DNA of 64,000 nucleotides from NCBI RefSeq assembly GCF_000012305.1, contig NC_007204.1, positions 1,860,001 to 1,924,000 of the forward strand. Direction: 5' to 3'. Shown one piece after another: positions 14,454-61,112 of this stretch. The position numbers were made by a program, and so were the translations under genes. Each line of letters begins with the position of its first letter. Positions within the stretch are counted from its first letter, which is position 1. This stretch comes from Psychrobacter arcticus 273-4. Its GTDB lineage: Bacteria > Pseudomonadota > Gammaproteobacteria > Pseudomonadales > Moraxellaceae. The notes under the pieces are model-generated. The model worked only from the letters and a program-made list of their open reading frames with translations, did not search any database and was not told the origin of the DNA.

Positions 14454-14525
14454 GAGTGCCTATAAATAATAATGTAAGTAATACTATAGTCGATTCAAAA
14501 TAAAGTAGATACATCATGTTTTGAC

Positions 14526-14604
14526 GCAGCACTGGTATAAATTTTTCTAGCGTGCTGTGCCTGCGCAGATAGAGGCTGCAAAAAATTCATTCCAGTCCCG
14601 CTGT
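14526..14604 (+). repeat. Diverged core of the palindromic element, copy 2
   Basis: Only the central part is recognisable: ..CACTGGTATAAATTTTTC, then TGCTGTGCCTGCGCAGATAG, then AGGCTGCAAAAAATTCATTC. Relative to the full copies it has many substitutions and lacks the TATAG termini. It sits between cdsA and dxr. It may be an old decayed insertion or a separate subfamily. Confidence 0.8.
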
Positions 14605-14704
14605 ATCATTTTTATACTGGGCTTACTATATAAAAACTAAATCAGCCGACAAGTTTATGTGCTATCAAATGACTACCTAAGCCGTTTTGATAGCTTTAGG
14701 TAAA

Positions 14705-18242: not shown

Positions 18243-19820
18243 TTAGGCTTGATAACTGGCAAATAAATCATATTCGCTAGCATCATCGATGGTAACCGTT
18301 AAGAACTGTCCGACTTTGACGTGAGCGTCAATATCATCGACATAGACATGACCGTCAATCTCAGGCGCGTCAGCATAACTACGGCAAATCGCTACGCCCT
18401 CTTCTCTATCAATTTCGTCCACCAATACCATCAAGGTTTTGCCGATTTTTTCTTGCAGTTTTTGAGCTGAGATATCTTGCTGTAATGTCATCAAACGCTC
18501 ATAGCGCTCTTGTTTAACGTCTTCTGGCACATGATTTGGCAAGTCATTGGCGACCGCACCTTCAACTTCTGAATAGGTAAAAGCACCAACGCGATCAAGG
18601 CGGGCTTCAACCAACCAATCTAGCAAACATTGAAAGTCTTCTTCAGTTTCCCCTGGGAAGCCAACGACGAACGTTGAACGAATAACGATATCAGGGCAAA
18701 TCTCACGCCATGCATGGATACGCGCCAAGGTATTTTCGCTATGCGCAGGGCGTTTCATCGCTTTTAAAATGCGATGGCTGGCATGTTGGAACGGGATATC
18801 TAAATACGGTAATAACTTCTTCTCGCCCATGAGTTCAACGACTTTATCCACGTGTGGATACGGATAAACATAGTGCAGACGCACCCAAATACCCAAATCG
18901 TTTAACGCTTGGCATAAGTCATAAAATTTTGACTTAAGCGGCATACCATTCCAAAAGCTGGTCTTATACTTTAAATCCAGCCCATAAGCGGAGGTATCTT
19001 GCGAGATAATCAACAGCTCTTTTACACCCGCTTTTTTCAGTGCCAGTGCTTCATTCATCACACTGTCAATCGGACGCGAAACCAAGTCACCGCGTAAACT
19101 TGGAATAATGCAGAAGGTACAACGGTGGTTACAGCCTTCTGAAATTTTTAGATAGGCATAATGGCTAGGCGTTAATTTAATGCCCGCCTCATTAATCAAA
19201 TCTATTTTTGGATCATAACTGGCATCCAAACTACGGTCAGGCTTGGGCACATGCAGTGCAACTGCTCTAATCACTTCGTCATAAGCATGAGCACCAGTCA
19301 CGGCTAGCACGGCAGGATGCATTTCACGAATTTTATCTGCTTCTTTACCCAAGCAACCCGTCACAATCACTTTACCGTTCTTGCTAATCGCTTCACCGAT
19401 GGCATCTAGCGACTCTTGTACCGCTGACTCAATAAAGCCGCAAGTATTAACCACAACTAAGTCTGCACCGTCATAGTCACTAGCAACTTGATAACCATCA
19501 CGGCTCAGTTCTGTAATAATACGCTCACTATCCACCAAAGCTTTTGGACAACCAAGCGATACAAAACCAATCTTTGGCGCTGCTGTTACTGAACTAGAGG
19601 CTGTCGCGCTGCTAGTTGCATCACCACTTTGGGCAATGCTACGGTTTTGATTATGATTGGCTTTATGGTGGTAAGGTTGAACACTGTCTATAGAGCTTTG
19701 CGCGGGCGTTGCTGTCGGCTTGGCAGGATTAAAGAGAGTGGCAGTGTCTTTTGGGGCAGTAGAAGCTGGCTGTGAAGGGGCAATAGTCGTATTAACGGAC
19801 TCGGTAGAAATTTTGGGCAT
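18243..19820 (-). CDS. rimO: Ribosomal protein S12 methylthiotransferase
   Basis: Radical-SAM enzyme that methylthiolates the beta carbon of an aspartate in ribosomal protein S12. The N-terminal MTTase domain begins at [17 protein letters not shown] with its cluster cysteines, the radical-SAM CxxxCxxC is CNHRCTFC, and a TRAM-like C-terminal domain follows. At 525 residues it is about 80 longer than usual because of a Ser/Thr/Ala/Pro-rich N-terminal tail with no recognised domain. The frame extends to TTG 19874, but AAGG six bases before the ATG at 19820 supports that start. Confidence 0.93.
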
Positions 19821-19916
19821 GGCTAACCTTGCTAGAGATAAATTGGCTGTGCGCATTGTACGTTTTTTTTGCAAAAATCGCCAGTTTTGCCGCTCTATCG
19901 TGTTAATTTATGGTTA

Positions 19917-20054
19917 TATAGTTGAAATACTTTAAAGTCGCTACCGTATTGCTGGTGTAAATTTTTTGCAGCCTCTGTCTGCGTAGGCACAGCAAGCAAG
20001 AAAAATTTGCACCAGTAGTACGTGTTGTATCGATATTACTTTTCACCGACTATA
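19917..20054 (-). repeat. 138-bp palindromic element, copy 3
   Basis: Full-length copy in the reverse orientation (TATAGTTGAAATACTTTAAA at the left, CACCGACTATA at the right). It lies between the divergent starts of rimO (19820) and ntrB (20091), only 36 bases before the ntrB ATG. It therefore sits inside the region that must contain both promoters. Confidence 0.95.
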
Positions 20055-20090
20055 TATTATATCAAGCATCTATTTATCTGGGTATTACTC

Positions 20091-21479
20091 ATGACCGCTG
20101 ATTTTATAAGCACAAAACCGACACCTGACTTAGCTTTTATATCACAGCATTTGTTTACGGCTATCTTATGGGTCAATGATGAATTGTCTATTACTTGGCT
20201 AAATGCCCAAGCTGAGCAGTTACTAGCGATCAGTAGCGGACGATTGCTTAATCAGTCGGTGTTGATGTTGCTTGCGCCCCAAGAGTTGAAAACCAAAAAC
20301 AATATTTTTATTAACAGCCCAAAAGATAAAAACTGTTCTTTGACTGAGCGCTTTCATCAAGCAAAGCAGTATCAACAACCTTTTATTGACCATGACCATC
20401 TAATAAACACCCAGTTAAATAACAACTTACCACTCTCGATTGACTACAGTGTAACCCCTGTTATTTATCAGCAGCAAAACTATTTTATTATAGAGATGTG
20501 GGGCAAAGACCGCCAAAGTCGCATCTCAGAAGAACAGCGCCAACAGCAGCAGTACAATGTTGCGCGCCATATGCTACGCTCGGTTGCCCATGAAATCAAA
20601 AATCCGTTGGCTGGTATTCGCGGTGCTGCACAATTGTTGCAGCGTCAATTTATCAAATTTAGTGAGAGCTCTTTTAATCATTACAGTGCTGATACTGACC
20701 ATACGAGCCTTATTTCAAATCTCACTGTAAAGCCTGATAACCATTTACAAAAAACTGCTGACAAATTACGCAGCTATACCGATATCATCATCTCAGAGAC
20801 AGATCGCCTAACTCAGCTGATTGGGCAGTTTCTTGGTTCCAATCAATTACCACATTGGCAAACGCTCAATATTCATGAGCCAATAGAGCATGTTTTGGCA
20901 TTGATCATCCATCAATATCCGCAAGTTTTATTGCAGCGCGACTATGACTTATCGTTACCTGAACTCTGTGCCGATAAAGACCAGTTGATTCAAGTCTTCT
21001 TAAACCTAATCAATAATGCTTGCGAGTCCATGACTGAACGTGCACAAACCTTGCTGCATCAAAAACCTTCTGAACTACATGCTTCACCATCAGAGATTAG
21101 CGCTTTTAATAGCAATGACGGTTATCAAGCTATTCTGCATATTCAAACTCGAGTTGTTTTTCAGCATACGATTGCTGGGCAGCAACATAAACAAGTACTA
21201 CAAGTTGCTATCACTGACAACGGTTCGGGCATTCATCAAGATATCATTGGGCAGATATTTTTCCCTATGGTGACCAGTCGCGCACTAGGAACTGGGCTTG
21301 GTTTATCCATTGTGCAGGATATTATCAACCGTCATCATGGTATGATTAATGTCAGTTCCACTCAAGATCAGCGCGCCAGTACGAATACTAATGCCAATAC
21401 CAATAATAAAAACAGCCATCATAGTCAGACCCGCTTTACCCTTTATTTGCCTTTTCATCAGCCAATCGCTGAAAGTTAA
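20091..21479 (+). CDS. glnL: Nitrogen regulation sensor histidine kinase NtrB
   Basis: Cytoplasmic two-component kinase (NtrB/GlnL) that phosphorylates NtrC under nitrogen limitation and is normally controlled by PII. The 462-residue protein has an N-terminal PAS-like sensor region (to about residue 140), the phosphoacceptor histidine in VAHEIKNPLAGIRGAAQL, and ATPase N, G1 and G2 boxes NLINNACESM, DNGSGI and GTGLGLSI. An insert of about 35 residues separates the H box helix from the rest of the dimerisation domain. A longer frame starts at a TTG inside the repeat (20022); the ATG at 20091 is preferred because the upstream codons are repeat-derived. ntrC follows after 41 bases. Confidence 0.93.
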   Translation: MTADFISTKPTPDLAFISQHLFTAILWVNDELSITWLNAQAEQLLAISSGRLLNQSVLMLLAPQELKTKNNIFINSPKDKNCSLTERFHQAKQYQQPFIDHDHLINTQLNNNLPLSIDYSVTPVIYQQQNYFIIEMWGKDRQSRISEEQRQQQQYNVARHMLRSVAHEIKNPLAGIRGAAQLLQRQFIKFSESSFNHYSADTDHTSLISNLTVKPDNHLQKTADKLRSYTDIIISETDRLTQLIGQFLGSNQLPHWQTLNIHEPIEHVLALIIHQYPQVLLQRDYDLSLPELCADKDQLIQVFLNLINNACESMTERAQTLLHQKPSELHASPSEISAFNSNDGYQAILHIQTRVVFQHTIAGQQHKQVLQVAITDNGSGIHQDIIGQIFFPMVTSRALGTGLGLSIVQDIINRHHGMINVSSTQDQRASTNTNANTNNKNSHHSQTRFTLYLPFHQPIAES

Positions 21480-23659: not shown

Positions 23660-23797
23660 TATAGTTGAAATGCTTTAAAGTCGCTACAGTACTACTGGTG
23701 TAAATTTTTTGCAGCCTCTGTCTGCGTAGGCACAGCAAGCAAGAAAAATTTGCACCAGTAGTACGTGTTGTATCGATATTACTTTTCACCGACTATA
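23660..23797 (-). repeat. 138-bp palindromic element, copy 4
   Basis: Full-length, reverse orientation, between the tRNA-Leu terminator and the 3' end of the protein kinase gene. Its TATAG end supplies the kinase TAG stop codon (23793-23795). Both inner arms carry the GTACTACTGG variant. Confidence 0.95.
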
Positions 23798-31646: not shown

Positions 31647-31784
31647 TATAGTTGAAATACTTTAAAGTCGCTACCGTATTGCTGGTGTAAATTTTTTGCA
31701 GCCTCTGTCTGCGTAGGCACAGCAAGCAAGAAAAATTTACACCAGTAGTACGTGTTGTATCGATATTACTTTTCACCGACTATA
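31647..31784 (-). repeat. 138-bp palindromic element, copy 6
   Basis: Full-length, reverse orientation, between the convergent cmoM and fbpC genes. Its right end overlaps the last codons and the TGA stop of fbpC. Confidence 0.95.
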
Positions 31785-33160: not shown

Positions 33161-33303
33161 TATAGTCGGTGAAAAGTAATATCGATACAACACAACACGT
33201 ACTACTGGTGCAAATTTTTCTTGCTTGCTGTGCCTACGCAGACAGAGGCTGCAAAAAATTTACACCAGTAGTACTGTCGCGACTTTAAAGTATTTCAACT
33301 ATA
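33161..33303 (+). repeat. Palindromic element, copy 7 (143 bp)
   Basis: Reference orientation, between fbpB and fbpC. It is five bases longer than the others because ACAAC is duplicated near the left end (GATACAACACAACACG). Both inner arms carry the ACTACTGG variant. Confidence 0.95.
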
Positions 33304-61043: not shown

Positions 61044-61112
61044 TATAGTCGGTGAAAAATCATATCGATACAACACGTACTACTGGTGCGACTTTAAAGT
61101 ATTTCAACTATA
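61044..61112 (+). repeat. Deleted palindromic element, copy 10 (69 bp)
   Basis: Reference orientation with both TATAG/CTATA ends intact but the central 69 bases missing: ..GTACTACTGGTGC joins directly to GACTTTAAAG... The junction shares GC with both sides of the deleted segment. It lies between trpS and scpA. Confidence 0.93.

Follow-up and report, generated by a model that had tools for sequence, protein, structure and literature searches.

In Psychrobacter arcticus 273-4, the intergenic region between the divergent rimO-like and ntrB-like genes carries one copy of a repeat that is best explained as a non-autonomous IS630-type MITE, i.e., a genus-restricted, non-coding, and hairpin-forming element. 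As to its consequence, we consider it rather probable that this MITE, seated in a TA near the expected ntrB transcription start, is read through from the native promoter and becomes a hairpin leader that influences the processing or stability of the ntrB mRNA. These readings are based on an analysis of the window, namely a 64,000-nt stretch of contig NC_007204.1 (positions 1,860,001 to 1,924,000), together with the rest of the P. arcticus genome and a set of relatives. Coordinates are given relative to the window (Table 1), except where the genome is named.

The ntrB-side copy is made up of a 134-bp TAG...CTA element and its flanking TA target duplication, starts with TATAGTTGAAATAC, and ends with TTTTCACCGACTATA. 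Its + strand is co-directional with ntrB, and the 36 nt that had been reported between its right end and the ntrB ATG agree with the coordinates obtained here (20054 vs 20091). The ntrB-like gene is followed by one encoding a sigma54-activator response regulator (Pfam), which is consistent with the gene name. To look for empty sites, relatives were gathered by NtrB similarity, and 54 of the 57 resulting loci were from Psychrobacter. The element was absent from the rimO-ntrB upstream region in all 54 Psychrobacter loci examined, which bears out the proposal of the first-pass annotation that a mobile repeat had inserted into this divergent promoter region. The filled site is 136 bp longer than the empty sites of the closest relatives, which corresponds to the 134-bp TAG...CTA unit plus the duplicated TA: the site in the window reads ATTTATGGTTA-TATAG...CTATA-TATTATATC, where relatives have ATTTATGGTTAAATATTATATC or variants thereof. 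These empty sites show that the ntrB insertion is younger than the split from the 54 sampled relatives, in a collection that may omit the genomes nearest to P. arcticus. For a second copy, at position 23660, the joined flanks align ungapped across the TA to relatives such as those at loci L046 and L035; with several other relatives, the alignment has gaps or is interrupted at this point. The strong hairpin, the hundreds of copies, and their exclusively intergenic location could also suggest a REP/BIME-type palindrome or a regulatory RNA feature of the host's own making instead of a transposed unit. This is already contradicted by the precise insertion at TA, the empty sites in relatives, and the IS630-like element ends, and we regard it as highly improbable.

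Table 1. Features at and around the rimO-ntrB locus and the related copies at fbpC (window coordinates)
Feature	Position	Strand	Basis or remark
rimO-like gene	18243..19820	-	Radical_SAM, UPF0004, TRAM_2 (Pfam)
Candidate rimO promoter CTGGCG-18-TACAAT	19884-19855	-	promoter scan; left of element
Candidate native ntrB core promoter TTGCCG-N16-TATGGT	19887..19914	+	aligned columns in relatives; tentative
TTGCCG hexamer	19887-19892	+	
TATGGT hexamer	19909-19914	+	
MITE copy, 138 bp	19917..20054	+	repeat families; 54/54 relatives empty; RNA fold
TTGTAT hexamer, inside element near right end	20025-20030	+	
Best promoter-like pair at right edge, TCGATA-N17-TATATT, -10 straddling boundary	20030..20058	+	
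ACTATA hexamer, element's outer right edge	20049-20054	+	
TATATT hexamer, across element boundary	20053-20058	+	
Native ntrB leader with ribosome-binding region, retained	20055..20090	+	aligns to relatives' leaders
ntrB-like sensor kinase gene	20091..21479	+	HisKA 7.9e-13, HATPase_c 8e-15 (Pfam)
Copy at fbpC 3' end	31647..31784	+	right end supplies fbpC stop codon (31773-31775)
Copy between fbpB and fbpC	33161..33303	-	right end 17 nt before fbpC ATG

The features that define a bacterial MITE are present save for a proven partner element. The repeat is a short, non-coding, multi-copy unit with terminal inverted repeats, and it shows a TA target duplication along with empty sites (54/54 at ntrB, and the second locus at 23660). 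Its TA target and IS630-like TATAG ends are those of an element putatively mobilized by an IS630-type transposase. IS630-type transposases were detected in 84 of the 105 Psychrobacter genomes, and 58 of 74 IS630 (PF13358) loci displayed TATAG...CTATA ends 860–960 bp apart with a TIR score of at least 15/28. These comprise 47 distinct end pairs, as some of the 74 loci were retrieved more than once through overlapping sequences. These IS630-family ISs share the TATAG...CTATA ends of the MITE, with 28-bp imperfect inverted repeats, but are coding, about 889–921 bp long, and have an interior unlike that of the MITE. An origin by internal deletion of an IS630 element was rejected, the interiors being unrelated with no internal sequence in common. 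The best end-pair sum between an IS630 element and the MITE was 43/56, where shuffles reached at most 37, and none of the 74 IS630 loci examined proved to be an exact cognate with closely similar ends. Strong core matches at IS loci L131/L173 and L102 fall outside the IS boundaries. The MITE ends that an expected IS630 parent would match are TATAGTTGAAATACTTTAAAGTCG and TATAGTCGGTGAAAAGTAATATCG. The P. arcticus genome was also considered as a source of an intact parent IS and yielded three IS630 remnants only; judged from their positions, the end pairs found 400–2500 bp apart in 864 kb of sampled sequence appear to be the outer ends of separate copies.

The element is very abundant in its own genome (2,650,701 bp, single contig), where 321 left and 319 right ends were identified with up to 3 mismatches, i.e., around 320 copies or ~1.7% of the genome, and a reversed control pattern gave 0 matches in the same genome at the same threshold. 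A 28-bp core pattern matched this genome 342 times. Within the window, seven further full-length copies were identified (3119, 23660, 27122, 31647, 46688, 54012, and 62600), along with a 143-bp variant (33161-33303). Across the genus, 80 of the 105 Psychrobacter genomes matched the 65-bp centre of the element, compared to 2 of 243 other genomes of the family, both of them marginal. The 28-bp core pattern was detected in 67 of these 105 genomes, with counts ranging from 1 up to 264, and 342 in P. arcticus itself; among the other genomes, G018 has 264 copies, G072 141, G025 119, and G066 114, and 38 genomes had none. These uneven core counts reflect lineage-specific amplifications. Plasmid or phage carriage was rejected, with no match in the plasmid or phage collections, and the element displays no recognizable coding content; an Rfam search returned no family besides tRNAs.

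To place the copies in their genomic context, we examined 108 full-length copies in 864 kb of the P. arcticus genome (40 stretches plus the window), none of which (0/108) is located within an ORF of 90 aa or longer. Context classes were assigned to 106 of these, two copies at stretch edges being left out, with genes taken from a crude longest-ORF caller (at least 90 aa), for which distances to gene starts are approximate. Copies were over-represented between convergent genes (37 of 106 vs 14.7 expected, p=4e-8), an excess that recurred when the sample was split in two (p=2e-6 and 0.002 for the halves). Tandem gaps contained 43 copies where 62.1 were expected (p=2e-4), and divergent gaps showed neither excess nor deficit (26 vs 29.2 expected, p=0.52). 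Copies next to tandem genes had no orientation bias (24/43 co-directional), which provides no indication that a function as leader has been selected.

We then considered from where ntrB may be transcribed. An alignment of the intergenic region, built from 53 relatives and the empty-site model of the window (43 distinct sequences; L021, which is truncated, was left out), revealed a block that is strongly conserved up to TTAAATATTA and then diverges abruptly, and the insertion splits this block near its ntrB-side end. In a scan with a promoter score matrix, the columns of TTGCCG-N16-TATGGT, or close variants of it, were top-scoring in 37 of the 43 distinct sequences and within the top three in 41, and we tentatively take this pair as the native ntrB promoter on the basis of its sequence. 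The candidate pair is uncut, and because the element starts 2 nt after TATGGT, a transcript initiated 6–8 nt downstream would begin within the element's first few bases. The key base at position 2 of the candidate -10 is a G in place of an A in 6 of the 43 sequences (TGTGGT), and the actual native promoter may therefore lie elsewhere in the conserved block. No terminator was found in 19700-20200. Of the two routes raised by the first-pass annotation, read-through from the TTGCCG..TATGGT pair just before the repeat is the favored one.

The other route invoked the outer edge of the element as a promoter. TTGTAT..ACTATA is a poor match to the consensus (3/6 and 2/6, i.e., 5/12), and a different pair, the best at this edge (TCGATA-17-TATATT), scores 7.84, level with the median best score in shuffled sequences (7.62). 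If functional, the right edge would be a mobile promoter, with its -35 (TCGATA) inside the element and its -10 (TATATT) formed by the terminal TA and four flank bases, that would drive ntrB by replacing or adding to the native promoter. This pair has the highest score on the + strand between 19820 and 20091 (9/12 consensus matches), and the sequence of the right terminus varies little across the genus. The right flank of the ntrB copy also ranks among the 6 best -10 scores of 106 right ends, and a single copy such as this one could act as an edge promoter. A promoter scan of the 500-bp region returned 2 sites, with 1.1 expected. Genome-wide, however, right ends facing gene starts do not have better -10-like flanks (score of at least 4) than those facing stops (7/50 vs 7/56, p=0.91), and neither end prefers starts, with 31 right and 25 left ends facing a start within 200 nt. 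Because of this lack of flank bias and end preference, a mobile-promoter role is not visible genome-wide, and it was rejected as the general role of the element. Copies are in addition concentrated between convergent genes, where promoters would be of no help. Overall, we consider it unlikely that ntrB is driven by a promoter at the element's edge.

The claim that the 138-base repeat forms a hairpin was supported by computed RNA folds, which reached -48.1 kcal/mol (z -5.86) for the + strand and -33.9 kcal/mol (z -2.03) for the - strand. With regard to strand-specific RNA selection, the + strand provided the better fold in 47/47 copies from the P. arcticus genome and 17/20 copies from the genus. 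Wobble columns numbered 17 for the + strand and 8 for the - strand (p=0.11), and private changes in P. arcticus copies (15 from WC to GU, 11 from WC to AC) displayed no bias. Across 20 gap-free copies, standard pairs were found in 93.8% of 1000 pair cells, and the terminal pairs (1-8/131-138) were kept in 97.5% of cells. Compensatory changes on both sides were observed for 9 of 50 pairs in these 20 genus copies, vs 5.8 in shuffles and 2–4 in slid controls, under a pairing model that was derived from one of the 20 sequences tested and is thereby favored. This set included the window copy and 19 of 20 copies fetched from other genomes, after one near-duplicate was dropped. Sequence diversity was lower in the core than in the stem arms, both across the genus (0.048 vs 0.107–0.124) and in 101 P. 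arcticus copies (0.003 vs 0.037). One could speculate that this nearly invariant core (AGCCTCTGTCTGCGNAGGCACAGCAAGC), held in co-varying arms, represents a functional module common to genus-wide MITE subfamilies that differ in their IS630 ends, e.g., a site for RNA processing or protein binding through which the repeats become harmless or useful once transcribed. Each insertion, including the one at ntrB, would then put a gene under shared post-transcriptional control. We see this as a distinctly unlikely prospect.

Within the favored reading, the MITE would have transposed into a TA located at about the expected ntrB transcription start, and because this event did not disrupt the native -35/-10 pair, the latter most likely continues to drive ntrB transcription. 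Based on the sequence, the ntrB transcript would start in or near the element and carry the long hairpin as its 5' leader, with the native 36-nt leader and its ribosome-binding region kept behind this hairpin. The hairpin is predicted to remain unpaired with the ribosome-binding region, and sequestration of this region was rejected, as the computed RBS/AUG pairing does not depend on whether the element is present. At the meningococcal mtrCDE locus, a Correia element separates the genes from their native promoter, forms part of the mRNA, and is cleaved by RNase III (PMC2649163; review PMC10969869). By analogy, the likely effect at ntrB would be on mRNA processing or stability, where the hairpin leader is perhaps cut by RNase III and ntrB translated from the remaining leader. 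The repeat would itself be primarily a genomic parasite, tolerated where its harm is small. It is also possible, albeit less probable, that the insertion is functionally neutral, i.e., a recent and tolerated parasite in the leader with no measurable consequence for either gene, ntrB or rimO. In line with this, the element overlaps neither the native promoter pair nor the candidate promoter of rimO nor the ribosome-binding region, and copies in divergent gaps are neither enriched nor depleted. However, one would normally expect a -48 kcal/mol hairpin positioned right at the 5' end to affect RNA stability, and the insertion did split a conserved block. The ntrB case represents a plain insertion, for which an effect on ntrB is plausible but unproven.

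The first-pass annotation had also compared this repeat to Correia elements, a parallel that is valid for architecture and position but does not extend to membership. Longer Correia elements contain an IHF site, for which the consensus is WATCAANNNNTTR, and no match to it with up to 1 mismatch was found within 19917-20054; one 1-mismatch match starts at 20060, outside of the element. The Correia core and inner-end motifs (CCGGTACGG / TCAGGACAA), as given in PMC2649163, are absent from the Psychrobacter element by inspection. In PMC2649163 and PMC2229807, Correia/NEMIS/CREE elements of Neisseria are described as about 100–160 bp long, and share with the Psychrobacter MITE a hairpin-forming sequence, more than 100 copies, a TA target, and a frequent location 5' of genes. 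They differ by their core and genus, while for the Psychrobacter copies 37/106 are between convergent genes and an edge promoter is unsupported. RUP elements of Streptococcus pneumoniae (107 bp, 108 copies), which are related to IS630-Spn1, are likewise intergenic with a TA target and IS630-like ends (PMC2229807). RUP is set apart here by genus; the Psychrobacter element has around three times more copies, and no intact IS630 was found in its own genome. MITEAba12 from Acinetobacter is also a Moraxellaceae MITE, of about 113 bp and with reported outward promoters, but has 9-bp duplications, ISAba12-like TIRs (GGCTTTGTTGC-type), and 1–22 copies per genome (PMC6382973 and PMC10969869).

Neither a description of this Psychrobacter MITE family nor a match to its end and core strings was found in the collection of papers searched, which has limited coverage of subscription journals. 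The family appears to be a previously undescribed and very abundant bacterial MITE, with a Correia-like architecture but distinct from Correia. Its approximately 320 copies in 2.65 Mb exceed the copy numbers given in the cited sources for Correia (about 120–250) and RUP (108). It provides a counterpart to Correia outside of Neisseria, with hundreds of natural insertions, many of them adjoining genes, and because dozens of sequenced relatives have empty sites, the consequences for leaders and gene ends could be measured comparatively. For ntrB itself the significance is modest, namely the leader of a nitrogen-control operon that was probably changed in one lineage.

Beyond ntrB, the first-pass annotation had noted that the same element end faces the start codon of fbpC. 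This is correct for the right end, but the gene there is part of a co-directional fbpA-fbpB-fbpC row. fbpC has a MITE copy on either side, the first between fbpB and fbpC and the second at the fbpC 3' end. Both element ends (e.g., 19917-19935 and 20036-20054) contain, within 19 nt, a stop codon in each of the three reading frames, and several copies supply the stop codon of an adjoining ORF.

Several variant forms were also identified. A 69-bp short form from which the centre is missing is found at 61044-61112, and a similar 69-bp form at genome position 1010194. A second subfamily, with a similar core but other arms, is represented in the window at 14485-14630 (ends TATAGTAAGCCCAG... / ...GGAATCGACTATA) and elsewhere in the genome at 534910, 538469, 1066462, 2161586, 2171755, and 2186819; its best match to the end of a bounded IS630 is 23/28. 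A third subfamily (genome 118412-118550, L058) has ends TATAGTAGATCC... / ...GAACCGACTATA, and 25/28 positions of its right end agree with the end of a Psychrobacter IS630 (L094). In the copy at genome 1069020-1069157 (L071), the core is inverted relative to the arms, which suggests an inversion within the hairpin. Finally, small tandem expansions (GTGTT/GTATT repeats) occur near the right arm of the copies at window 33161-33303 and genome 2181948-2182095.
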